Of a DNA stretch of 64,000 bases, positions 491 through 15,857 are shown one piece after another (positions within the stretch are counted from its first letter, which is position 1; every line of letters starts with the position of its first letter). Source of the DNA: Thermodesulfovibrionales bacterium (lineage in GTDB: Bacteria; Nitrospirota; Thermodesulfovibrionia; Thermodesulfovibrionales; SM23-35). Under the pieces are notes generated by a model. That model did not search any database and was not told the DNA's origin. It saw only the letters and a program-made list of their open reading frames with translations. Made by a program: the position numbers and the translations under genes. The stretch covers positions 1 to 64,000 of the forward strand of contig JAVHLL010000009.1 of assembly GCA_031082155.1 (NCBI GenBank), given 5' to 3'.

Positions 491-1822
491 ATGACATTAG
501 ACGAAATATGGAATAGCGGCATCTCTCAGATAGAAGGGAGAGTAGGGAGTAATATCACCGATCTCTGGTTCCGGCCAATAAAACTCACTATGGTAAAAGA
601 ACACACTATTACGCTGGAGATACCGAACAGGTTCTTTAAGGACTGGATAGAAGATAATTATCCTGACTTAGTGAACGAAACGGTTGGGCGCATTATGGGA
701 TATCCTGTCACCGTGCGGTATAAAGTTGCGGAGAAAATAGACCCTGACGTTAAGAAGATGGATATGCGTCTTGAAAACAGGAGGCAGAAACTCGCGAGCA
801 GGGGTATTCATCTGAACCCTAAATATACCTTCGAAAATTTCGTGATAGGGCCAAGCAATCAATTTGCTCAGGCAGCGGCAAAAGCTGTTGCCGAAGCTCC
901 TGGCAGGGCATATAATCCGTTGTTTGTCTATGGAGGAGTCGGACTGGGAAAAACACATCTGATCACCGCGATAGGCAATGCGGTTATTGACAAGAGACCG
1001 GAAGTATCGGTGATTTACGTTTCAGCAGAACAGTTCACGAACGAGGTTGTATCAGCGATTCGGCATGAGAAAATGGGGGAGCTGAAAGAGAAGTACAGGA
1101 ATGTGGACCTCCTGCTCCTTGACGACATTCATTTTATTGCAAATAAGACGCAGACACAGGAAGAATTCTTCCATACGTTCAATGCGATTTATGAAAGACA
1201 GAGGCAGATCGTTATTTCGAGCGACAGACCGCCGAAAGAAATCGGCGCGGTAACTGACAGACTCCGGTCACGGTTCAGCATGGGCCTTATTGCAGACATT
1301 CAGCCGCCGGAGCTGGAGACAAAAGTTGCGATATTGCTGAAAAAGGCTGATCATGAAAAGATTGCTATTCCGGAAGAAGTTGCCTATTATCTTGCATCCA
1401 GGGTGAGAACGAATATTCGCGAGCTGGAAGGGTGCCTCATCAGGCTTGGAGCGCAGGCATCACTGACAGGGACAAATATCTCAGTCACGATGGCGAAAGA
1501 CATCCTGCACGATCTCATCGAAGAAGATGAAAAACCGATTACTACCGACCAGGTTCAGAAAGTAGTCTCTGATCACTTTGCCCTAAAGTTGTCGGATATG
1601 AAGGCAAGAAAGAGGACGAAAGAAATTGCGTTACCAAGGCAGATTGCAATGTATTTAAGCAAGCAGCTGACAAGCTTGTCCCTCAGCGATATAGGGAAAA
1701 ATTTCGGCGGCAAAGACCATGCAACAGTTATCTATGCCTGCAAACAGATTGAAGACAAGAGGACGAAGGACGAGGTCTTCAACAGGCTGATCGAGAATCT
1801 GATACGGAAGTTGAAGGGGTAA
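491..1822 (+). CDS. dnaA: Chromosomal replication initiator DnaA
   Basis: DnaA is the AAA+ initiator that binds DnaA boxes and opens the origin. The 443-residue protein has the normal layout: N-terminal DnaB-interaction region (about 1-80), short linker, AAA+ core with Walker A GGVGLGKT at 148-155 and Walker B LLLLDD near 207-212, and a C-terminal helix-turn-helix DNA-binding domain with the family signature (LSLSDIGKNFGGKDHATVIYA-type; GKDHATV instead of the commoner GRDHTTV). The ATG at 491 has no clear Shine-Dalgarno sequence; the previous bases are AT-rich. The gene follows the origin candidate and starts the dnaA-dnaN-gyrB series, the usual order at bacterial origins. Confidence 0.98.
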   Translation: MTLDEIWNSGISQIEGRVGSNITDLWFRPIKLTMVKEHTITLEIPNRFFKDWIEDNYPDLVNETVGRIMGYPVTVRYKVAEKIDPDVKKMDMRLENRRQKLASRGIHLNPKYTFENFVIGPSNQFAQAAAKAVAEAPGRAYNPLFVYGGVGLGKTHLITAIGNAVIDKRPEVSVIYVSAEQFTNEVVSAIRHEKMGELKEKYRNVDLLLLDDIHFIANKTQTQEEFFHTFNAIYERQRQIVISSDRPPKEIGAVTDRLRSRFSMGLIADIQPPELETKVAILLKKADHEKIAIPEEVAYYLASRVRTNIRELEGCLIRLGAQASLTGTNISVTMAKDILHDLIEEDEKPITTDQVQKVVSDHFALKLSDMKARKRTKEIALPRQIAMYLSKQLTSLSLSDIGKNFGGKDHATVIYACKQIEDKRTKDEVFNRLIENLIRKLKG

Positions 1823-1853
1823 CGGGTAAATAAAGGATAGTAGAGGAGGGAGT

Positions 1854-2987
1854 ATGAAACTACAGGTATCAAAAGACGAAATGCAGGAGAAACTGGCAAA
1901 TATCCAGAATATCATAGAGAAGAAAAATACCATGCCGATCTTAAGCCACTTCCTTCTCAGCGCCGGCAAGAAAGGTTCATATATTATTGCGACAGATATA
2001 GAAACGGCGATAAAAGAGCCACTCAATGTTGCCGTTGAGAAAGAGGGTAAACTCTGCATACCGGCCCGAAAACTGTTCGAGATCGTGAGAGAAACGGACG
2101 GCGACCTGTCTTTTGAAACAATAGATGAGTCTTCATCAGGAGGATGGCTCAGGGTAAAATCAGGCGCAAGCGAATTCAAGCTCGCTTGTCTTTCTCCTGA
2201 TGATTTCCCTGCATGGCCTGCATTGGGAGATGTTGAAGAGTTGACGGTTGATGCTTCGTCCCTCCTCGAAATGATAGAAAAAACGATCTACGCCGCCGGA
2301 GAAAGTGATACAAGGTATACCCTGAACGGACTCCTGTTCCACACAAAGTCCGGCGATAAGGCCCTCACCGTAGTGGGTACAGACGGACACAGACTGGCTT
2401 TTATCACAAAGGATATGGAAGGAGAGGGGAAAGAGGAAAAAAGGATCATCATACCCAGAAAGGGCGTTTCTGAACTGAGACGCTTCCTGCCTGCGGACAA
2501 GGATACCGGAGGAGAAAGAAAAACGGTCAAAATTTCTGTAGGGGAAAAGCACCTCCTGTTCAGCATTGATACCATAGAATTTTTAACAAGACTTATTGAA
2601 GGCTCATATCCGAATTATGAGAACGTTATCCCCCAGGCAAACGAGAAACAGATATTGATAGATAAGGACCCGTTTGTAAGGGTTCTCCGCAGGGTTTCGG
2701 TCATGTCGAGGGAACGGGCAAGTGCGATCAGGTTCGATCTTGACAACGACCTGCTTACCGTGTTTTCATCGAGTCCCGACCTTGGTGAGGCAAAGGAAGA
2801 AGTTGTGATAGACTATAAGGGTGAGAAGATTTCCCTCGGTTTCAATGCCCGGTATCTGCTCGATATTCTCGGAGCCATGACATCAGAAAAGGTTGTCCTT
2901 GAACTGCAGGACCCGCTCAGCCCGGTTCTTGTGAGAGAGGACGGGAACGAAAAGTATAAGAGTGTCATTATGCCAATGCGGATATAA
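1854..2987 (+). CDS. dnaN: DNA polymerase III beta subunit (sliding clamp)
   Basis: This is the ring-shaped processivity clamp of the replicative polymerase. Its 377 residues fit the three-domain clamp fold. Recognisable parts are the N-terminal MPILSHFLLSA segment, the central TVVGTDGHRLAF segment and the C-terminal VIMPMRI, close to the canonical PM(R/Q)L ending that lines the client-binding pocket. The ATG at 1854 is preceded by GAGGAGGG, a strong ribosome site. It lies 31 bases after dnaA, probably co-transcribed with it. Confidence 0.97.
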   Translation: MKLQVSKDEMQEKLANIQNIIEKKNTMPILSHFLLSAGKKGSYIIATDIETAIKEPLNVAVEKEGKLCIPARKLFEIVRETDGDLSFETIDESSSGGWLRVKSGASEFKLACLSPDDFPAWPALGDVEELTVDASSLLEMIEKTIYAAGESDTRYTLNGLLFHTKSGDKALTVVGTDGHRLAFITKDMEGEGKEEKRIIIPRKGVSELRRFLPADKDTGGERKTVKISVGEKHLLFSIDTIEFLTRLIEGSYPNYENVIPQANEKQILIDKDPFVRVLRRVSVMSRERASAIRFDLDNDLLTVFSSSPDLGEAKEEVVIDYKGEKISLGFNARYLLDILGAMTSEKVVLELQDPLSPVLVREDGNEKYKSVIMPMRI

Positions 2988-3079
2988 CTTTGTTGTCGTT
3001 AACGCAAAAAAAAGATATCTGAGTATATGCGATATGACCTGTGACTACAGGGAATCACGCGAAGACCGGAGGGCATTGA

Positions 3080-5918
<2,839 letters not shown>

Positions 5919-5927
5919 GAAAAAGAT

Positions 5928-5957
5928 TTGACAAATTCTCGGTGAATACTTTATCGT
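5928..5957 (+). promoter_or_regulatory. Promoter candidate for the methyltransferase leader
   Basis: A perfect -35 hexamer TTGACA (5928-5933) is followed after 18 bases by TATCGT (5952-5957; four of six matches). It lies about 60 bases before the first of two tandem hairpins, which would give a long structured leader of roughly 200 bases. Confidence 0.4.
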
Positions 5958-6013
5958 AAATATATTCAAGCACGAAGTTTGAGTATTTACACACGGATTT
6001 TAGACAGTATTGA

Positions 6014-6059
6014 GCCATGAAGGTTGTCACCAGAAGGTGACGGGACGCATGGCTTTTTT
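6014..6059 (+). terminator. Tandem terminator-like hairpin 1
   Basis: Outer stem GCCATG (6014-6019) pairs with CATGGC (6048-6053); inner stem GTCACC (6026-6031) pairs with GGTGAC (6036-6041) around an AGAA loop; six T follow. It could terminate gyrB-operon transcription or regulate the downstream gene. It shares the string GCCAYGAAGG with hairpin 2. Confidence 0.6.
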
Positions 6060-6115
6060 GTTTTGATTCCATACATGCACTAAGAACAATTTAATTTCTC
6101 ATTAAAAGACAATAA

Positions 6116-6160
6116 GCCACGAAGGCACACACCGTGAAGGTGTCCTTTTGTGGCTTTTTT
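6116..6160 (+). promoter_or_regulatory. Tandem terminator-like hairpin 2, adjacent to the methyltransferase ribosome site
   Basis: GCCAC (6116-6120) pairs with GTGGC (6050... 6054), AAGG (6122-6125) with CCTT (6044-6047 offset by 100, that is 6144-6147), and ACACC (6129-6133) with GGTGT (6139-6143) around GTGAA. The outer right arm is at 6150-6154 and is followed by T6 (6155-6160), then GGAGG at 6165-6169 and ATG at 6174. An intrinsic terminator shape placed immediately before a ribosome site is the usual layout of a transcription attenuator. No antiterminator could be assigned, and it matches no riboswitch class I recognise. Confidence 0.5.
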
Positions 6161-6173
6161 ATTTGGAGGAATC

Positions 6174-6887
6174 ATGGGAGATGCTTTCTGTACACTTGCG
6201 GGTGATGTTGCATACTGGGACGGCTATTCCCAATGGTACAAGTTGTGGTTCGAACATAACAATTATCACGATGAGGTGTTGGAAACCCTCATGGAAATGG
6301 TAAAGCCGGGATGGAAGGTTCTTGACGTCGGAGCAGGGAATGGCGTTCTCTCTTTGCCGTTATGCGCGATTGGATGCGAGGTCAGCGCTCTCGAACCGTC
6401 CGCCGGTATGAGAAAACTCCTCTATAAGGAAGCATACAGACGGGGCATTGATTGGATAAGGGTCGATAATCGCAGATGGGGAGAATTTCATGATTTCTCT
6501 GCCGAATTTAATCTTATCATAGCGTGCAACAGCCTTCATCTGATGCCTCTGGGGATAGAACATTCATTGAAAAAAATATTTTCTCTTAAGCCCATGAATG
6601 TCTTTGTCGTAAGCGAGATACCATTGGAGAATTCGAAAAAACAAATCCTTTTCGATGATTACGCCAGAGCATTTACAAAAAAGAAAGTGACAGAAAGCTC
6701 TTTTGCGTATCATTCCATTGCAGAAGCAATTGAACACTGGTCTTACAAGAACAGGAGGGCGCCTGATCCCCGCGAGGAGAGGGAAATCAGATCAAAACTC
6801 ATCCGGAAACATAACCATTTCTGGATGCAGGACATGGCTTCCGTGCACATGTACTGGTGGACTCGGCATGTTGAACATGCTGCATAA
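6174..6887 (+). CDS. Class I SAM-dependent methyltransferase
   Basis: The 237-residue product has the Rossmann-like methyltransferase fold. Motif I is VLDVGAGNGVLSLPL (about residues 47-61), followed by the acidic end of strand 2 (CEVSALEPS) and a motif resembling the post-II region (FNLIIACNSLHLM). The substrate is not evident; a small molecule is possible. The start at 6174 is chosen because GGAGG lies five bases upstream; an in-frame start at 6150 would lie inside the hairpin. Its stop overlaps a small ORF (6877) split by the following ISL3-type element. Its position ahead of tonB-exbBD suggests it once belonged to the same operon. Confidence 0.8.
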   Translation: MGDAFCTLAGDVAYWDGYSQWYKLWFEHNNYHDEVLETLMEMVKPGWKVLDVGAGNGVLSLPLCAIGCEVSALEPSAGMRKLLYKEAYRRGIDWIRVDNRRWGEFHDFSAEFNLIIACNSLHLMPLGIEHSLKKIFSLKPMNVFVVSEIPLENSKKQILFDDYARAFTKKKVTESSFAYHSIAEAIEHWSYKNRRAPDPREEREIRSKLIRKHNHFWMQDMASVHMYWWTRHVEHAA

Positions 6888-6931: not shown

Positions 6932-8317
6932 GGTTCATTCGTAGAAAAGTTGAAAATAGAGTTGAAGGGTAGAAAAGGTAGAACCGAAGCATAGAAAAAG
7001 GAAAGCATCGAATTTCAGCCGCAACTGGTATAGTTTTGTTGTCGAAGACAAAATAATACCGGAGGAGAAATTCGATGCAATTAGATAGTGTCACGGAACT
7101 GCTGGGAATTGCAAACTTTAAAGTAGCGTATATGGTACGTCACAGCGAAAATAGGATAGATTTGGTATTAAGACGGGTAGAGGAAAAGCCCTGTGTCTGC
7201 TCAGGATGTGGAAAAGTTCACCATACACCTATTCACAGTATAGATACGGTTATCATTGAGGATCTGCCCATTAGTGGAAAGCGTGTGTTCCTGCATGTTC
7301 CGAAACGGCGGTCGCTCTGTCATGAAGATGAGAAAATCAGAACCGAAGAACTTGAGTGGTTGCGAGGGAGAGTTACCCGGAGATTTGCAGAGCAGATCTA
7401 CCGGCTGACTTCTATCACGACAAATAAGGAAGCCGGCTGGTTTCTGGGGTTGGATGACGAGAAGGTGTATCGAATAGACAAAGGCATGCTTGAAGAATTA
7501 TCGTTACAGCGGATTCAGAAGGTTACACCTCCCCGGCATATGAGTGTTGATGAAGTAGCGTGGCAGAAGTGGCATAAGTACGTCACGAATGTTATTGATG
7601 TCGATAAACGGAAAGTCATTTGGAACCACGAAGGGCGCGGCAAAGCAGTCCTGGATAAGTTTTATCGGAAGATAGGCAAGAAGGGATGCGGCAAGATACA
7701 GGCTGTAGCCAGTGACGGTGCCCGAGGGTTTCTGTCATCCTCAAAAGAGCATCTGAAAAAGGCCCTGATCGTACTGGACCATTTTCACGTAAAGAAGTAT
7801 CTTAACGACGCGGTTGATACTGTCAGGAAAGAAGAACTGAGGAAGGCCAGACAACAGGAGAATCAAGAGGTGTCTGCCATCCTGCATTGCAATAAGCGAT
7901 TTATCCTGATGCAAAACACGGTGACGGATAAGAAAACAGATATACTGAAGAAGCTCGAATCATTGAACGAAAGAGTCTATCAGGCAATGCTCCTCAAAGA
8001 ACAGTTTCTCTCGGTTTATTCCGCAGGTAACCGGAAGGATGCCTATACGAATCTGAGGGCTTGGATCGTGGCGGCAATAAACTCCCGGATACCATCGTTT
8101 GTTGAGCTTGGATACAAGTTCTTCAGGAAACGGCATTATGTCCTGAATTACTTCACCTGTAAAATAACGTCCGCCATATCGGAAGGAATCAATAATAAGA
8201 TAAAGAGGTTAAAGCGCATGGCTTACGGCTACAGAGACGTCAAATACTTCTTGCTCAAGATACATCAGCATTGCGGACTGTTAAGCCCTAAGCTTTCAAC
8301 TTAAACACGAAAGAGAG
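6932..8317 (+). mobile_element. ISL3-family insertion sequence
   Basis: The element carries one transposase gene (7075-8304). The ends show an imperfect inverted repeat: left TTCGTagaaAAGTTGAAA (6938-6955) against the reverse complement of 8293-8310, TTCGTgtttAAGTTGAAA. The boundaries are set by an 8-base direct repeat AAAAAAAG at 6924-6931 and 8318-8325, the length usual for ISL3. Because this repeat is a homopolymer the exact ends are uncertain by a few bases. The transposase looks intact, so the copy may be active. It sits between the methyltransferase and tonB. Confidence 0.7.
7075..8304 (+). CDS. tnp: ISL3-family transposase
   Basis: The 409-residue protein has the features of ISL3 transposases: an N-terminal zinc-binding region (CVCSGCGKVHHTPIHSID, about 41-58) for binding the ends, a helix-turn-helix region, and a DDE nuclease core with aspartates in VDEVAWQKW and VASDGARGF and a downstream glutamate in the AISEGINNKIKRLKR segment. 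It cuts and pastes or copies its own element. The ATG is preceded by CCGGAGGAGA. No frameshift or stop is seen. It is the only gene of its element. Confidence 0.9.
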   Translation: MQLDSVTELLGIANFKVAYMVRHSENRIDLVLRRVEEKPCVCSGCGKVHHTPIHSIDTVIIEDLPISGKRVFLHVPKRRSLCHEDEKIRTEELEWLRGRVTRRFAEQIYRLTSITTNKEAGWFLGLDDEKVYRIDKGMLEELSLQRIQKVTPPRHMSVDEVAWQKWHKYVTNVIDVDKRKVIWNHEGRGKAVLDKFYRKIGKKGCGKIQAVASDGARGFLSSSKEHLKKALIVLDHFHVKKYLNDAVDTVRKEELRKARQQENQEVSAILHCNKRFILMQNTVTDKKTDILKKLESLNERVYQAMLLKEQFLSVYSAGNRKDAYTNLRAWIVAAINSRIPSFVELGYKFFRKRHYVLNYFTCKITSAISEGINNKIKRLKRMAYGYRDVKYFLLKIHQHCGLLSPKLST

Positions 8318-8429: not shown

Positions 8430-9191
8430 ATGATAATGAAAAGGAATACAAACATAGAAATAAACACATACGGATTGGGATACGCGCATGAGCAGCATTA
8501 CGGAATAATAACGTCGCTTTCCGTCCATTCGATTATCTTCATGCTTTTCTTTATGCTCTCTCTTGTGAAAAGCGGTAATGACGTAAAAACGTATTATATC
8601 CAGTTTACCCAAATGGGGGAAGAAACAGTCCAGGCGCCTCAGTCCGCCAGTAAGATGAAGAGACCTATAGCTACTGAACCGGAAAGGAAAGTGGTGAGAG
8701 AGGAAATCCCGGTGATAAAGGATACTCCTGTTGAAGCGCATGAAGCGGTCATCAGGGACAATGCAATTGAAACTCCTGACGTGGTCAAAGTGGCAAGCGC
8801 TCCCGAACTTGCGCCACAGCCAGAGGCAATTCACCGGCAGAGCGGGGAGGGCACAGTCAGTAATGTCGCATTTGCCTCATCCGGCACTTCTGCAATTATC
8901 GAAACAGAATTCGGTTCTACCGGAGCTCCTGCTTTTGTAAACAGGCAGATTCCGGTATATCCCATGATGGCAAAGAAGCTCGGCAAGCAGGGCAGGGTTG
9001 TTTTAAGGCTTCATATAAACGAGAAAGGAAGGCTTCTGAATATTGAAGTTGTTGAACCGGCAGGCTACGGGTTTACGGAGTCTGCCATGGAGGCGGTGAA
9101 AATGTCGACCTTTTCCCCCGCGCATGAAAAGGGCGTGAGTGTTGCATCAAAGGCTTTACTCACCGTCCGTTTCGTGTTGAAAAAGAGCTGA
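8430..9191 (+). CDS. tonB: Energy transducer TonB
   Basis: TonB spans the periplasm and passes proton-motive energy from ExbB/ExbD to outer-membrane receptors. The 253-residue protein has one N-terminal membrane segment (about 27-45, IITSLSVHSIIFMLFFML), a long variable periplasmic stretch rich in P, E and A, and the C-terminal TonB domain (about 170-252) with PVYPMMAKKLGKQGRVVLRL and SAMEAVKMSTFSPA, matching the YP...G.V.....DG.G...A.....W.F.P family pattern. An alternative ATG lies two codons in. It begins the tonB-exbB-exbD-receptor set and is probably dedicated to it. Confidence 0.9.
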   Translation: MIMKRNTNIEINTYGLGYAHEQHYGIITSLSVHSIIFMLFFMLSLVKSGNDVKTYYIQFTQMGEETVQAPQSASKMKRPIATEPERKVVREEIPVIKDTPVEAHEAVIRDNAIETPDVVKVASAPELAPQPEAIHRQSGEGTVSNVAFASSGTSAIIETEFGSTGAPAFVNRQIPVYPMMAKKLGKQGRVVLRLHINEKGRLLNIEVVEPAGYGFTESAMEAVKMSTFSPAHEKGVSVASKALLTVRFVLKKS

Positions 9192-9213: not shown

Positions 9214-9648
9214 ATGGAATGGCTTAAGGCAGCTGTCGATTATGGGATTATCGGACTCCTGGTTGTTATGAGTGTTATTGCAGTTTCAATCGCGGTCGAG
9301 AGGCTACTTGTTTACCGGAACATCAGGCTGGGAGACTTCGGAGACAAGAAGTCCCTTGAAATAGAGCTCACAAATAAACTGCATATCATCGCAACAATAG
9401 GAAGCAACGCGCCGTACATAGGCCTGCTCGGCACGGTGCTCGGCATAATGCTTACCTTTTACACAATAGGCAAGGAAGGTCTAATCGATACGAGCAAGAT
9501 CATGACAGGTCTTGCCCTTGCGCTGAAGGCGACGGCTATCGGACTTGTTGTTGCCATCCCGTCGATTACTTTTTACAACTTTCTTTTGAGACAGGTGAAA
9601 GTGTTGATAGCCAAATGGGAGACGGACAATGGAAGAAAAAGAATTTAA
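9214..9648 (+). CDS. exbB: ExbB/TolQ/MotA-type proton channel protein
   Basis: This inner-membrane protein forms the proton-conducting complex with ExbD that energises TonB. At 144 residues it is a short ExbB form. Three membrane segments are seen: about 8-28, 62-83 (APYIGLLGTVLGIMLTFYTIG, the family signature) and 98-121. The long cytoplasmic loop of classical ExbB is reduced, as in many TonB-system paralogues. AAAGGAGAAA precedes the ATG. Its end overlaps exbD by 20 bases, which indicates translational coupling. Confidence 0.9.
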   Translation: MEWLKAAVDYGIIGLLVVMSVIAVSIAVERLLVYRNIRLGDFGDKKSLEIELTNKLHIIATIGSNAPYIGLLGTVLGIMLTFYTIGKEGLIDTSKIMTGLALALKATAIGLVVAIPSITFYNFLLRQVKVLIAKWETDNGRKRI

Positions 9649-10018
9649 CTATATGAATGTTATTCCACTGGTGGATGTGATGCTCGTACTGCTTACGATC
9701 GTCCTAACCACATCGACATTTATCGCTTCAGGAATGATAAACGTATCATTGCCGAAGGCGTCTGCCGAGCATAAGGAGATACTGAAAAATCAGACCATAT
9801 CCATACATAAAGACGGAACACTCTATTTGAATGCTTATTCAATGACGCTTGATGAATTGAGAGGAAAAGTGACCATGCTGGACAGGGAGACGCCGATGGT
9901 TATCCGTGCGGACAGGGACATCAGGCTTCAGGTATTTGTGGATGTCCTTGATATTATCAATAACCTCGGATTCAAAAAAGTTGCGATACAGACCGAAAAG
10001 GGAGGTGAGAAAAACTAA
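9629..10018 (+). CDS. exbD: ExbD/TolR-type biopolymer transport protein
   Basis: ExbD is the partner of ExbB in the TonB energy complex. The 129-residue protein has the family's N-terminal membrane helix with the proton-coupling aspartate in NVIPLVDVMLVLLTIVL (about 9-25) and a periplasmic domain ending in a region with RADRDIRLQVFVDVLDIINNLGFKKVAIQTE, of which the typical element is the conserved (D..V.Y..V...M...G)-type helix. It overlaps exbB and is followed by a structured, 150-base gap before the receptor gene. Confidence 0.92.
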   Translation: MEEKEFNYMNVIPLVDVMLVLLTIVLTTSTFIASGMINVSLPKASAEHKEILKNQTISIHKDGTLYLNAYSMTLDELRGKVTMLDRETPMVIRADRDIRLQVFVDVLDIINNLGFKKVAIQTEKGGEKN

Positions 10019-10168
10019 AAATTTCAAATTTCAAATTAAAAATTTAAAAAATCAGGGGCAGGCGTAACCTTGGAGTGGACACTCTGCCCCCGAGGGAAGC
10101 GATGCAGTTACAACGCCCCCTTGCTTTATTTTAGCAAAGAAGGGGTAAGACAAAAAGGAGGAGTAAAT
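10019..10168 (+). promoter_or_regulatory. Structured leader before the TonB-dependent receptor
   Basis: After an A/T repeat stretch (10019-10050) several mutually exclusive stems can form. GGGGCAG near 10053 pairs with CTGCCCC near 10083; GGCGTAAC overlaps the first arm and can pair with GTTA/CGCC around 10108-10120; a third hairpin has CCCCTT near 10121 against AAGGGG near 10140. GGAGG and the receptor ATG (10169) follow. Such alternatives suggest an RNA switch, but it matches no class I recognise. Confidence 0.4.
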
Positions 10169-11989
10169 ATGTTTTCCAGAATTTTGTTAGCACTGTTTTT
10201 ATTAGCTTCTGTTTCAACAGCATTTGCTGAAGAAGCGAAGGAAGCAAAACTGGAAGAGATAGTGGTTACTGCAACAAAAACGCCGCACACATTGGAAGAT
10301 GTACCTGTTGAGACTGTCCTGATAAATAGGGAAGATATTGAAGCCTCCAATGCAAAAAATGTGTCAGAAGTTTTAAAAGATGTCCCCGGATTTTATATAC
10401 GGGGAGAGAACGTGCCCGGGTCGTCGTCTTATCTTTCAAGATTAAGGGGATTCGATTTTGATAAGGGTTATGGACTTGTCCTTATTAATGGTGAAAGGGT
10501 GCTGGGCGGTGGCATGGGCGAGTATGGAATAAGCATTAACCAGATACCGCTTGAGATGATAGAAAGGATAGAAATCATCAAAGGACCAAGCTCTGTCCTG
10601 TATGGGAGCGATGCAGTAGCAGGTGTTGTAAATATAATTACAAAACCGATACCTGAAAAACCGTTGTTCACACTAAGCGGAGGATATGGTTCGGAGGAAA
10701 CATCTTTAGCAAGTATCAGTTACGGTCAAAAAATTAAGGACTTCGGGGTGTTAATCAGCGCCCAGCATGAGAAATCTGAAAGGGGCCGTTACAGTGCATC
10801 GGAAGACGAGTTTGAAGCACGGCATATATTAACAAAACTGTCATATGATATCTCAGAAAAAGTTAATGCTTCAGTTGGGATAAATTATGACAAATCAGAG
10901 TGGCAGTATCAGATCGATGAAAAACTCAGATTCAGCCCGTCTCTGGAATTGACATTGCCCGACACATCTTTCCTGAAGGTTAAAGGATACTGGCACAGGC
11001 TCGATATGGACAGTTTCTCACCCGGATATACTCGGCGCTTTGGGGATATCACGTATACACAGGCGGAACTGCAATATACCAGACCTTTCGGTCATACACA
11101 CCTTGCAACTGCAGGGGCTGAATATCTGCTGCGGGATATTGATGCAAGCTTTGCGGATAAGGAAGATACGGTCTGGAGTTTTTATCTTCAGGATGAGATG
11201 ACCCTGAAACCTTTTGGTATTGTCATGGGCGGCAGAATAGATAATCATTCACTGTATGGGACCGAATTCAATCCAAAAGCAAGTATTATGTGGGAGATTT
11301 CCGAGAAAACACGTCTGAGGGCATCAGCAGGAAGGGCGTTCAAGTCGCCGACGATTAGGCAGCTCTATGTATTTTTCAAGCACGGGAATTGGTGGAACAG
11401 ACCTAATCCGGATATGAATCCCGAAGTTTCGTGGGGCTATTCTGCAGGGATTGAGCAGGTTATTTCAGACAAGATATCCGCCGGTTTAAGTCTTTTCAGA
11501 AATGATGTAAAAGATATTATTGTCGCAGTCAGTACGTCAGAGAAAATAGATAATGTGCCCGTCCGTACATGGAAGAACGTAAGAGAGGCATATACACAGG
11601 GTATTGAGTTCAGCATAAAGGCCACGGTTATTGAGAACCTTGCCATGAATTTGGGGTATGCATATCTTGATACCGAGAACAAAGAACTCAATAAGGACCT
11701 GCCCTACAGCCCGCACCATACAGTCAATACCGGATTGGATTATGAGATTAAGCGCTGGCCGGCCTCACTGCACTGGAGGACAACCTATTATTCAGAGGCT
11801 TTCAGCAATGAGACAAATACATCCGAAATAAAGGGGTATTCCGTCTCAAATCTGAAGATAATCAAAGAAATTACAAAAAACATATCTGCTTCACTGGACA
11901 TAGACAATATATTCGGCTCTGATTACGGAGAGCCGGATAAAGAATGGCTCGGACGGGTATATTTCGGCAAATTAACAATTAAAATCTAA
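10169..11989 (+). CDS. TonB-dependent outer-membrane receptor
   Basis: This outer-membrane beta-barrel imports a scarce ligand using TonB energy. The 606-residue product has a clear signal peptide (cleavage after VSTAFA), a TonB box-like EEIVVTAT, the plug domain (about 40-155, with SVLYGSDAVAGVVNIITK) and a 22-strand-type barrel. It resembles the vitamin B12/siderophore/heme class of receptors, and the context of three metal-type periplasmic proteins suggests a metal or metal chelate. Start 10169 is chosen for AAGGAGGAG upstream and a sensible signal peptide; the frame itself is open from 10070. Confidence 0.92.
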   Translation: MFSRILLALFLLASVSTAFAEEAKEAKLEEIVVTATKTPHTLEDVPVETVLINREDIEASNAKNVSEVLKDVPGFYIRGENVPGSSSYLSRLRGFDFDKGYGLVLINGERVLGGGMGEYGISINQIPLEMIERIEIIKGPSSVLYGSDAVAGVVNIITKPIPEKPLFTLSGGYGSEETSLASISYGQKIKDFGVLISAQHEKSERGRYSASEDEFEARHILTKLSYDISEKVNASVGINYDKSEWQYQIDEKLRFSPSLELTLPDTSFLKVKGYWHRLDMDSFSPGYTRRFGDITYTQAELQYTRPFGHTHLATAGAEYLLRDIDASFADKEDTVWSFYLQDEMTLKPFGIVMGGRIDNHSLYGTEFNPKASIMWEISEKTRLRASAGRAFKSPTIRQLYVFFKHGNWWNRPNPDMNPEVSWGYSAGIEQVISDKISAGLSLFRNDVKDIIVAVSTSEKIDNVPVRTWKNVREAYTQGIEFSIKATVIENLAMNLGYAYLDTENKELNKDLPYSPHHTVNTGLDYEIKRWPASLHWRTTYYSEAFSNETNTSEIKGYSVSNLKIIKEITKNISASLDIDNIFGSDYGEPDKEWLGRVYFGKLTIKI

Positions 11990-12004: not shown

Positions 12005-12757
12005 ATGAGAAAAAACAGACGTAAATTCTTTTTGAGCATCTTTTTGGTATTTGTTTGTTTCTTTGTAAATTCCAATCTGGCAATGGCTCATGATTTATGG
12101 CTAAATGTTGATAATCATTATCCGGAAGCAGGAGAAAAGACTACAGTTAAGGTAGTGTTTGGTCACAATTTTCCATACTACGATATTTTAATCACCAGAG
12201 ACAAGCTGACCGGCTTCTCTTATCTTTGTCCCGACGGACAAATAAGGGAAGTTGAAAAGACCTGGGAAGATAAAAAGGAGGAATCCAAAGAAGGTTACGG
12301 TTACAGGGCAGGCGCATTGGCAGGTGTTATTACCCTCGATCAGAAAGGGACTTATGTGGTTGCCGCTTCCAGAAAAGTAAAAGGGGACCGTGAACATGTG
12401 ACATCAGAAAAATACGGCAAATCCATAATTATTGCAGGCAAAGGGAATGAAATGGTCAGTAAACCATTCGGCCACAGAATCGAGATTGTACCTCTAAAAA
12501 ATCCTTCGGAGATTAAGCCCGGAGATGAGTTCCCTGTAAGGGTTCTTTTTGAAGGAAAGCCTCTTTCTACATATGTGTATGCCACCTATGCAGGCTACTT
12601 CTCTGAAGATGAACCATTTCCGTTTTTCACAAAAAGCAATGAAGATGGAGTTGCCTATATGAAGATTCCTCAAGCCGGCACCTGGATGCTTGTATGCAAT
12701 CATAAAGTCGATTTCTCCGCATCACTGACTTTTAAAATAGCTGAAGGGTATAAATAA
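12005..12757 (+). CDS. Exported DUF4198-family protein, predicted N-terminal His (1)
   Basis: The 250-residue protein has a signal peptide ending NLAMA and would mature to an N-terminal H29-DLW. The rest is a beta-rich DUF4198 domain with EIVPLKNPSEIKPGDEFPVRVLFEGKPL (given here as a family-like pattern EIVPL.NP..I.PG), which is linked in databases to nickel and cobalt uptake regions. A histidine at the mature N-terminus with other histidines (for example FGHNFPYY) could bind metal. It follows the receptor by 15 bases and precedes a paralogue by 21 bases. Metal identity is unknown; periplasmic location is inferred from the signal peptide. Confidence 0.8.
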   Translation: MRKNRRKFFLSIFLVFVCFFVNSNLAMAHDLWLNVDNHYPEAGEKTTVKVVFGHNFPYYDILITRDKLTGFSYLCPDGQIREVEKTWEDKKEESKEGYGYRAGALAGVITLDQKGTYVVAASRKVKGDREHVTSEKYGKSIIIAGKGNEMVSKPFGHRIEIVPLKNPSEIKPGDEFPVRVLFEGKPLSTYVYATYAGYFSEDEPFPFFTKSNEDGVAYMKIPQAGTWMLVCNHKVDFSASLTFKIAEGYK

Positions 12758-12778: not shown

Positions 12779-13486
12779 ATGAAGAAAAAACTGTTTGCAA
12801 TTATCGTTCTCGTTCTACTTTTGACACAGCCAGCATTTGCCCATCACCTCTGGATAGAAAAAGAAGGTGATATTTTTAAAGTATTGTGGGGTCATCCACC
12901 GGAGACAAACCCCTATGAGCCAGAAAAGTTGAAGGAGGCAAAGGCATTTGACAGCAAGGGGAAAAAAGTCCCATTGGCAAGAAAAAATGAAAAGGATGCA
13001 ATGTATTTGTCTTCAAAATCGGATGTTTCGATGATAGTCGTTTCATTTGAAGGCGGTTATCTTGTGACCACACCTGATGGAAAAAAGAGACTTGCAAAAA
13101 GAGAGGCTGAAAAGTCAGGTTTGCAGATAATAGATTCTGTTTACTCCACACAATATGCAAAGGGTTTATTTGTCTGCAGTGAAAGTACAGCAAAGCCTTC
13201 AGGCTTACAATTCGAGATTGTGCCGCTCAAAAATCCTTGCAAGGCAAAACCGAATGAGATGCTTCCTCTCAGAATTTACTTTGATGGAAAACCCCTTGAA
13301 GGAGCGATCGTAGAAACAGGAAATCACGCTGAGGCCGGCAGAACTGACAAGGACGGTAATTTCAGTATAAAAGTGTCTGAAAAGAGCATGCAGATTATCC
13401 TAGCAAAATATAGGATTCCAACAAAAGATAACCCTGATGCTGATTTTCTGTCTTATACCACAGTCCTCTCATGGGTGATGAAGTGA
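12779..13486 (+). CDS. Exported DUF4198-family protein, predicted N-terminal His (2)
   Basis: The 235-residue paralogue of the previous protein has a signal peptide ending QPAFA and would mature to H22-HLW. It keeps the pattern EIVPLKNPC-KAKPNEMLPL-RIYFDGKPLEGA in its C-terminal half, which resembles a small immunoglobulin-like or carboxypeptidase-regulatory fold. Two N-terminal histidines and a nearby WGHPP offer likely metal ligands. GGAGG precedes the ATG. The 3' end overlaps the next gene by 16 bases. It is probably a periplasmic metal-binding partner of the receptor; no enzyme motif is visible. Confidence 0.8.
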   Translation: MKKKLFAIIVLVLLLTQPAFAHHLWIEKEGDIFKVLWGHPPETNPYEPEKLKEAKAFDSKGKKVPLARKNEKDAMYLSSKSDVSMIVVSFEGGYLVTTPDGKKRLAKREAEKSGLQIIDSVYSTQYAKGLFVCSESTAKPSGLQFEIVPLKNPCKAKPNEMLPLRIYFDGKPLEGAIVETGNHAEAGRTDKDGNFSIKVSEKSMQIILAKYRIPTKDNPDADFLSYTTVLSWVMK

Positions 13487-14023: not shown

Positions 14024-14347
14024 TCATTTTAACAGATTGCGGTTAGCCAGGTGCATTTTGATTTTTGAGTGTTCGATAGAGAGATCGATCCACTTTTCAA
14101 CGAGAGCTTTGAATTTTTTGTAAGTATCGACCTGCTTTTTCAGATCATCAACATGGGGAACCCTGACATACTCGGTTTTACTTTTCATCTTATGGGTATA
14201 GCTGATCTGATAGAACTCCCATTTTTTATCTTTCGCATTGCGGTATTGTTTGGTCAGTGACCCTGGCCGCATCTCTCCGATATTCAGCAGGTCCTGCTTA
14301 ATCTTTTCAATCTGCTTTTCGATTTTCAAAAGACTTTTGTCTGTCAT
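14024..14347 (-). CDS. DUF6788-like passenger protein of the IS4-like element
   Basis: The 107-residue protein is charged and largely helical: an N-terminal coiled coil (SLLKIEKQIEKIKQDLL), a central stretch with GSLTKQYRNAKDKKWEFYQISYTHK, here shortened as GSLTKQYRNA and YQISYTHKMK, and a second coiled coil. It resembles small DUF6788-type proteins often encoded beside transposases. The YTHK-type central basic segment may bind nucleic acid. It lies within the element's inverted ends and is divergent from the transposase across a shared palindromic promoter, so it may regulate or assist transposition. The family assignment is from memory of its sequence pattern. Confidence 0.65.
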   Translation of the reverse strand: MTDKSLLKIEKQIEKIKQDLLNIGEMRPGSLTKQYRNAKDKKWEFYQISYTHKMKSKTEYVRVPHVDDLKKQVDTYKKFKALVEKWIDLSIEHSKIKMHLANRNLLK

Positions 14348-14395
14348 ATTCCTCTGCGTTAATTTTACCAGAACTGTCTTTTTGAGGGTGTATTT

Positions 14396-14433
14396 TATTG
14401 CTATTATAGCATATATATGCTATAATAGCAATA
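14396..14433. promoter_or_regulatory. 38-base perfect palindrome with symmetric extended -10 elements
   Basis: The two 19-base halves are exact reverse complements with no loop. Each half contains TGCTATAAT (plus strand 14418-14426), an extended -10 promoter element, so promoters can fire in both directions toward the transposase and the passenger gene. The palindrome could also be an operator or a cruciform. Confidence 0.65.
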
Positions 14434-14456
14434 TCTTGTTCCCTTGGAGGTTTGTC

Positions 14457-15857
14457 ATGGTTCTTTGGCGTCACTGGCTGTCTGTTGTCGAACAATTACG
14501 TCCTGCCTGTTCCCGGATGAGAACGTTTCTGTGGTTGTCTGTTTGTCTTGCCGGTATGTGCATACGACCGGATATCTTCGGCGTCACCAGTATCGTCAGA
14601 GCCTTTGGCCTTAAAGAAGCTTTTTATGACAGACTCCTTGATTTCTTCCACTCCCCCGCATTAAACCTCGGGGAGCTTACACGTCGCTGGGTCAATTCAG
14701 TTGTGACGATCTTCCCTGGCGTTCTTACTAAAAACGGGCGGCTGCTGATTGTCGGCGACGGCCTGAAAATCCCAAAATCAGGCAAGAAGATGCCCGGCGT
14801 AAAACTTCTCCATCAGGAATCCGATTCCAATACGAAGCCGGAGTACATTATGGGGCACTCCTGTCAGGCGGTTGCTATTCTGGTCGGAGCTCTGCAGAGT
14901 GTCTTTGCCGTCCCTGTTGCAAGCTGTATCCATGAGGGGCTTGTCTTTTCCAACAGGGATACGTCAACCCTTCTGGATAAGATGCTTTCTCTGGTTGACT
15001 CTCTCGGTCTTCCCTCGTTTTATTTTATCGCTGACGCGTATTATTGCGCTCGGAAGGTTATGGCTCCTCTGATTAACAAGGGTAATCACCTTGTCTCTCT
15101 GGTAAAAATGAATGCCGTTGCCTATATGCCCGCTGATGTTCCCTCAGGCAAAAGAAAGAAGGGCCGCCCCCCACTATATGGCGAAAAGGTTAAGCTCAGA
15201 ACTCTGTTTGACAACCCCGACGCTATGCAGGAGGCTCAAAGCCCTGTATATGGCGAAACAAATGTGCTCCTGAGGTATCGCTACGCCGCCCTCTTGATCA
15301 AAAGAATCGGCATCATGGTGCGCTTCGTGGCCGTTATCCATCCGACCAGGGGGCGGCGTATCCTGATGTCGACGGACTTGTCTTTATCCCCCCTCGATAT
15401 TATTGCTCTGTACGGTCTTCGCTTTAAGATCGAGGTCTCTTTTAAACAGGCTGTCCGTACTATCGGCTCTTATGCATATCATTTCTGGATGAAGGCTATG
15501 ACTCCTATTCGTAAGGCTTCAGGCGATCAGTACCTGCACAGGAAGTCTGAGCAATACCGCACGGCTGTCAGAAGAAAGCTTGCTGCGTATCACCGGTTTA
15601 TTCAGGTCGGGCTTATCGCTCAGGGGCTCCTTCAGTATCTTTCCATTAGCTTTCCCGATCTCGTTTGGGCTAAGTTCGGCTCTTGGCTCCGTACTATCCG
15701 CCCCGGTATTCCCCCCTCGGAGTATGTTACTTCCCTTGCCCTCAGAAATTCCTTCCCCGATTTTCTGTCAGGTTCCCCTTCTGAGGCTACTTTCGCGAAA
15801 TTCCTCATCGATAGGATCGATTTCCGTAAAAATAACCCCTTTAGGTTAGCCGCTTAG
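14457..15857 (+). CDS. tnp: IS4-like transposase
   Basis: The 466-residue product is a DDE transposase. Probable catalytic residues are the aspartates in LIVGDGLKIPKSGKK (about residues 97-111) and FYFIADAYYC (about 184-193), and the glutamate in YGLRFKIEVSFKQ (about 322-334). The start at 14457 is chosen for TTGGAGG upstream; the open frame extends back to 14238 through the palindrome and the passenger gene, which is unlikely to be coding. Codon choice (many T- and C-ending codons) differs from neighbouring chromosomal genes, consistent with recent transfer. Confidence 0.85.
   Translation: MVLWRHWLSVVEQLRPACSRMRTFLWLSVCLAGMCIRPDIFGVTSIVRAFGLKEAFYDRLLDFFHSPALNLGELTRRWVNSVVTIFPGVLTKNGRLLIVGDGLKIPKSGKKMPGVKLLHQESDSNTKPEYIMGHSCQAVAILVGALQSVFAVPVASCIHEGLVFSNRDTSTLLDKMLSLVDSLGLPSFYFIADAYYCARKVMAPLINKGNHLVSLVKMNAVAYMPADVPSGKRKKGRPPLYGEKVKLRTLFDNPDAMQEAQSPVYGETNVLLRYRYAALLIKRIGIMVRFVAVIHPTRGRRILMSTDLSLSPLDIIALYGLRFKIEVSFKQAVRTIGSYAYHFWMKAMTPIRKASGDQYLHRKSEQYRTAVRRKLAAYHRFIQVGLIAQGLLQYLSISFPDLVWAKFGSWLRTIRPGIPPSEYVTSLALRNSFPDFLSGSPSEATFAKFLIDRIDFRKNNPFRLAA

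Follow-up and report, generated by a model that had tools for sequence, protein, structure and literature searches.

Tandem attenuators of a nickel-uptake operon, probably read by a trans-acting factor for which DUF3842 is the leading candidate

The leader of a methyltransferase gene in the window, by which we mean the whole 64,000-nucleotide stretch of DNA analyzed here, carries two related terminator hairpins of a family that recurs before metal-uptake genes. Our preferred explanation, to which we give a probability of roughly 0.6, is that these are tandem attenuators of a nickel-uptake operon and that they are read by a trans-acting factor, most likely DUF3842.

The leader and the operon behind it

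The original prediction of two terminator-like hairpins before the methyltransferase gene, each ending in six T, was confirmed on the forward strand. Attenuator 1 (6014-6059, with ends reading GCCATGAAGG...GCATGGCTTTTTT) is an intrinsic terminator with arms GCCATG and CATGGC and a T-run at 6054-6059. Attenuator 2 (6116-6160, GCCACGAAGG...TTGTGGCTTTTTT, T-run at 6155-6160) is also an intrinsic terminator and abuts the ribosome-binding site, its 3' end lying ∼5 nt from GGAGG and 14 nt from the methyltransferase ATG at 6174. Their folding energies are -23.8 and -22.4 kcal/mol, respectively, with z scores of -5.2 and -4.7, and none of 200 shuffles equaled them. Both have the properties of intrinsic terminators acting as attenuators, namely a stable hairpin followed by a T-run, a position between promoter and start codon, and a competing fold.

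The competing fold is a small hairpin, Pa, present as AGCC[ATGAA]GGTT at 6013-6025 (Pa1; loops are given in square brackets) and as GCC[ACGAA]GGC at 6116-6126 (Pa2), both on the forward strand and both assigned as antiterminators from the nascent fold and from covariation in the family; Pa1 excludes terminator 1. Inner hairpins on the same strand occupy the terminator loops, GTCACC[AGAA]GGTGAC at 6026-6041 (Pb1) and ACACC[GTGAA]GGTGT at 6129-6143 (Pb2). P0, which the original prediction did not include, is a third hairpin sharing the loop of Pa and lies upstream at 5963-5985 on the forward strand (TATTCAAGC[ACGAA]GTTTGAGTA, loop at 5972-5976). It is just 3' of a forward-strand promoter-like site, TTGACA-18-TATCGT (5928-5957), which is identified by its 10/12 consensus match only, with 27 such sites seen where 24 would be expected in the region scanned.

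The SAM-dependent methyltransferase gene (6174-6887) is the first of the regulated operon and is followed, all on the forward strand, by genes for TonB (8430-9191, PF03544), ExbB (9214-9648, PF01618), ExbD (9629-10018, PF02472), a TonB-dependent outer-membrane receptor (10070-11989, PF00593 and PF07715), and two DUF4198 proteins (12005-12757 and 12779-13486, PF10670). An ISL3-family transposase gene at 7075-8304 separates the methyltransferase from TonB. It looks like a recent insertion because the operon of a same-genus genome (G001, L009) is continuous without it, and it may have uncoupled the distal genes from the attenuators. Another transposase-like open reading frame, recognized by eye, lies directly 3' of the metal operon at 14238-15857. 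Upstream, at 491-5485, are dnaA, dnaN, and gyrB-like genes (also named by eye), and the nickel operon thus adjoins a replication-initiation block.

Conservation and distribution of the hairpin

Among 21 related genomes, the five methyltransferase orthologues are 92, 50, 48, 47, and 44% identical to the protein of the window, and all five have the same hairpin directly upstream despite protein identity down to 44 to 50%. The hairpins stand in tandem, as in the window, in three of these genomes (G001, G006, and G008), which bears out the idea of tandem, sequence-related attenuators.

The family follows the pattern RRGCC[AYGAA]GGYYY-stem-loop-complement-TTTTTT. A scan of 84,980 genomes, a sample including many MAGs, returned at least 115 stretches, chiefly from Desulfobacterota, Nitrospirota, and Firmicutes; the matches listed include one Anaerolineae (Chloroflexota) and one Spirochaetia (Spirochaetota) contig. 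Variants such as GCC[GTGAT]GGC (L161) are under-counted, since GCCAYGAAGG is fixed in the search pattern. In 101 related genomes there are 61 matches to the strict pattern versus 1 to the reversed pattern, and in 67 genomes of one Firmicutes order ∼28 versus none. A covariance model (R1) finds matches across much of the order, with up to 11 per genome; weak matches in NikR genomes (E values of 1e-6 to 0.01) were set aside because bidirectional terminators score there too. One contig titled Diapherotrites archaeon (L093) has the motif before an FmdE-type gene that is almost identical to those of two Desulfobacterota contigs (L110 and L075), and it is probably mis-binned.

Comparison with Rfam gave no gathering-level match in the window and none to the motif at an E value of ≤0.05 in two relaxed searches, so that no known family was matched; the best sub-threshold match, TEG147 (E value of 0.07), was dismissed as plain terminator resemblance. 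Searches of the open-licence PMC literature on nickel attenuators, nickel riboswitches, and cbiM motifs found no description of the element (other literature may differ). The family is apparently an undescribed class of RNA motif, absent from Rfam.

Two competing folds and the NGAA-loop hairpins

The 5' arm, RRGCC-AYGAA-GGYYY, can pair either with the 3' arm to form the terminator (P1) or with itself to form Pa. For P1, the Y of AYGAA and its partner form C-G in 73 cases, T-A in 58, T-G in 13, and C-A in none, a count for which the search pattern required a Y and an R but left open whether the two match. For Pa, the position just 5' of GCC and the second position 3' of GG (x2-y2) pair in 108 of 144 unique arms compared to 89.7 ± 3.2 after shuffling (0 of 5,000), with an odds ratio of 13 for A-T/G-C (P = 3e-8; P values throughout are inflated by kinship among the sequences). 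This relation is not predicted by P1, and partners slid by one or two positions give no signal. It holds within the stratum of Desulfobacterota plus other lineages (P = 1.5e-4) and is weak within Nitrospirota (P = 0.037). The original prediction had read covariation from the two hairpins of the window, and while two copies alone cannot show it, covariation is real across the family for both P1 and Pa.

Nascent RNA lacking the 3' arm folds into Pa at 147 of 150 sites, a result partly implied by the definition of the motif. The median energies are -11.8 kcal/mol for Pa and -28.7 kcal/mol for the terminator, and because the finished terminator is ∼17 kcal/mol more stable, a factor would be needed to hold Pa. 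We conclude with good confidence that the arm forms a switch between Pa and the terminator.

The loop recurs outside Pa. When all five-base loops within 150 nt upstream were tallied without bias, ATGAA (22), ACGAA (12), AAGAA (10), AGGAA (5), and TCGAA (4) led, with all others at 2 or fewer. Upstream hairpins with a loop of 4 to 5 nt ending in GAA were found at 66 of 172 sites, with no other triplet exceeding 9, whereas shuffles gave 4.9 ± 1.9 and downstream sequence 8 of 165. The stems of P0 are almost all different while the loop is conserved. P0 starts 4 to 20 nt past the -10 element in 21 of the 31 sites with a recognizable promoter and would therefore be the first structure transcribed. 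Pb, the hairpin within the terminator loop, ends its loop in GAA in 53 of 155 sites compared to 24 of 637 control terminators (P = 1e-23). Under strict stem rules, 97 of 170 sites have at least one NGAA-loop P0 or Pb and 73 have neither; among 9 relaxed sites kept as a hold-out, P0 was seen at only 2. The make-up varies between sites, from P0 with Pa to Pa with Pb and Pa alone.

Genes controlled by the motif

The 115 stretches were picked without regard to genes. Among the matches listed, 85 of the 115 are followed on the same strand, at no more than 4 kb, by a recurrent metal-uptake family. Another 16 lack a complete open reading frame downstream, and of the 14 left over, several contain lar, NiCoT-like, or CbiM genes that clustering missed. 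The commonest first genes (n = 109, among the matches listed) encode DUF4198 (13), the methyltransferase (13), the TonB plug (12), and CbiM (10), with PDGLE, FmdE, TonB, and SBP_bac_5 also frequent, and the hairpin recurs before methyltransferase, TonB, and metal genes as originally anticipated. The operons that follow include CbiM-CbiQ-CbiO, TonB-ExbB-ExbD, TonB receptors, NikABC-like ABC transporters, and a UreH/NiCoT-like permease, some of the gene names being given by eye from sequence. The window's own genome has a further copy (L179) before a porin-CbiM-CbiQ-CbiO operon. The nickel-pincer genes larE, larB, and larC follow the motif in four contigs (L060, L091, L132, and L137).

The motif is very probably an attenuator of a nickel/cobalt regulon. 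Nickel is indicated as the metal by the lar genes and by the relation to NikR described below, and cobalt is perhaps regulated as well. A cobalamin riboswitch (L104, 7295-7434, Alkalibaculum) is present on the same contig as a nickel-context copy of the motif. In several phyla, metal-uptake operons repeatedly begin with the methyltransferase (6174-6887 and its relatives), whose substrate may be a metallophore; its relatives were sought in viral contigs and none were found.

DUF3842 and NikR

Clustering of the open reading frames near the motif, beyond transport and methyltransferase genes, gave DUF3842 (12 loci) and FmdE (9). Among the 101 relatives, DUF3842 scores over the cut-off in 64 and NikR in 29, and the two occur together in 1 of 92 carriers (P = 5e-16), the sole double carrier (G082) being an assembly with 6% contamination. 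DUF3842 is present in 37 of the 39 strict-motif genomes of this set (P = 5e-8), the two motif genomes without it being G004 and G024, and NikR is present in 1 of the 39. The genome of the window (G000) lacks nikR. NikR itself, absent from or mutually exclusive with the motif genomes, was rejected as the factor that reads the motif.

Across phyla, and among the matches listed, DUF3842 is found in 39 of 50 pattern-match genomes and NikR in 3 of 50. Six matches were set aside as chance terminators, two of them bidirectional (L150 and L072) and four without metal genes (L066, L086, L106, and L146); DUF3842 is present in 39 of 44 nickel-context genomes among the matches listed versus 0 of 6 for these chance matches, a split that was not blind, being recorded only after the DUF3842 search, and on which the figure of 39 of 50 does not depend. 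In one Firmicutes order, DUF3842 occurs in 20 of 20 motif genomes compared to 29 of 47 others (P = 6e-4). DUF3842 genomes without the strict motif number 27 of 64 among the relatives and 29 of 49 in the Firmicutes order, and some of them carry relaxed forms. NikR and DUF3842 occur together in Thermovorax (G102). The partition also holds across what look like switches within families: one genome of a mostly-NikR family (G087) carries DUF3842, with the motif preceding CbiM, and two genomes of DUF3842 families (G071 and G051) have nikR near a CbiM operon and no hairpin there.

Five contigs (L183, L113, L128, L121, and L056) have the motif immediately 5' of the DUF3842 gene itself, and in L132 it separates divergent DUF3842 and larBCE-cbiMQO genes, an arrangement like that of an autoregulated regulator. 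One Firmicutes genome (the 7,434-bp contig L132; G144 C126 and C141) has two DUF3842 paralogues with a motif copy within ∼100 nt of each. In Nitrospirota, DUF3842 is mostly encoded apart from the regulon and stands alone in most cases examined.

The model of DUF3842 (PF12953), with a pLDDT of 90.6, shows a small alpha/beta domain of Rossmann-like fold. Searching the PDB by sequence and by fold gave no confident relative, and a weak likeness to the nucleotide-binding folds of UbiX and FtsZ is a lead only. The alignment has no invariant Cys/His metal site, no known RNA-binding domain was found in the protein, and a search of open-licence PMC literature returned nothing on DUF3842. We lean, by a small margin over even odds, toward DUF3842 being the RNA-binding factor.

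Proposed mechanism and alternatives

By default, the nascent leader would fold into the terminators and transcription would stop before the methyltransferase-TonB-ExbBD-receptor operon. Alternatively, the RRGCC[AYGAA]GGYYY arm would fold into Pa and deprive the terminator of its 5' arm. Under nickel shortage, the AYGAA/NGAA loops would be bound by a trans-acting factor, both in Pa and in a second hairpin (P0 and/or Pb), and the stabilized Pa would let RNA polymerase read through. The factor would most likely be the small DUF3842 protein, or else something under its control, substituting for NikR. The two folds, the covariation, the conserved loops, the regulon, the distribution, and the co-occurrence with DUF3842 are computational results, from which we infer the RNA binding of DUF3842, its ligand, and the polarity (low nickel, operon on).

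This layout has a precedent. ANTAR-target RNAs have two hexaloop hairpins with conserved loop positions 1 and 4, and in eutP the first hairpin stays folded and free while the second is buried in the intrinsic terminator (PMC8934654). As in the targets of EutV, AmiR, and NasR, the motif has two small conserved-loop hairpins, the first free and the second within an intrinsic terminator, and a bound factor would expose the antiterminator, but its loops (NGAA/AYGAA, 4 to 5 nt, ending in GAA) are not hexaloops and it serves nickel uptake, unlike ANTAR targets. No ANTAR protein was found in 25 of the 47 motif genomes tested (that of the window and 24 of 46 others), among them all 8 Nitrospirota tested. 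An ANTAR protein was rejected as the factor because the loop is wrong and the protein is missing from many motif genomes; with loop and protein both different, the motif works like the ANTAR system without being a member of it.

The LicT/SacY RAT shares an antiterminator hairpin that competes with a terminator. It is one asymmetric hairpin with a sequence unlike that of the motif, and no RAT match to the motif was found in Rfam. The NikR regulon contains target operons of the same kinds (CbiM-type and other nickel/cobalt importers), but NikR acts by protein-DNA control and is missing from nearly all motif genomes.

The small NGAA-loop hairpins, the two-hairpin layout, and the coupling to DUF3842 together favor protein-dependent antitermination. 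One rival, which we consider improbable, is a metal-sensing riboswitch in which tandem NGAA hairpins bind Ni2+ or Co2+ directly, the copies sharpening the response, and DUF3842 is a mere part of nickel metabolism. A conserved loop, a competing terminator, a nickel/cobalt regulon, and tandem copies upstream of the methyltransferase would all suit it. The NiCo (czcD) riboswitch (RF02683) is likewise an RNA that controls nickel/cobalt-related genes. That riboswitch is a multi-helix aptamer of efflux genes, whereas the motif has no Rfam match and precedes uptake genes. What the motif conserves at its core is a single tiny loop, repeated in separate short hairpins of variable number and order, which makes repeated protein sites likelier than an aptamer, and a riboswitch alone leaves the DUF3842 link and the autoregulation unexplained.

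It is similarly unlikely that another RNA-binding protein reads the same attenuator, with DUF3842 making or consuming the signal or being a co-evolving nickel-handling protein. The nucleotide-binding-like fold of DUF3842, its lack of an RNA-binding domain, and its occasional place inside the regulated operon are in line with such a role. The stand-alone gene in most Nitrospirota examined, the replacement of NikR lineage by lineage, and the motif borne by DUF3842 itself speak against it, and besides FmdE no further recurrent non-transport family was prominent near the motif.

A repressor site in DNA, the palindrome AAGCC-N5-GGCTT lying within a terminator by chance, is very improbable. AAGCC...GGCTT is indeed an inverted repeat, but the fixed spacer AYGAA is asymmetric, G-T pairs are common (42 at x1-y1; at x2-y2, 15 G-T versus 8 A-C), the T-run and orientation are constant, and P0 and Pb keep the loop and not the stem. 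Ordinary terminators or REP-like repeats without a regulatory role would account for the six matches set aside as chance terminators, but this reading, the least probable of all, is contradicted by the regulon and orientation, given the steady position before metal-uptake start codons in several phyla and the reversed-pattern controls (1 versus 61 and 0 versus 28).

Significance

The original interpretation as a whole is partly supported: tandem related attenuators, recurrent placement, and covariation hold good, and ligand sensing by the RNA itself is the less likely reading. Nickel is required by hydrogenases, CO dehydrogenase, urease, and lactate racemase, notably in anaerobes, and we found no answer in open-licence PMC literature as to how its uptake is controlled in sulfate reducers, acetogens, and Nitrospirota that lack NikR. 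We put at about even the chance that DUF3842 represents a new class of RNA-level regulator of nickel status, which would bind NGAA hairpins, antiterminate nickel-uptake and lar operons, and replace NikR in Nitrospirota, Desulfobacterota, and many Firmicutes. The attenuator and DUF3842 together offer a concrete and testable account of the control of nickel uptake without NikR, and a domain of unknown function gains a likely function.
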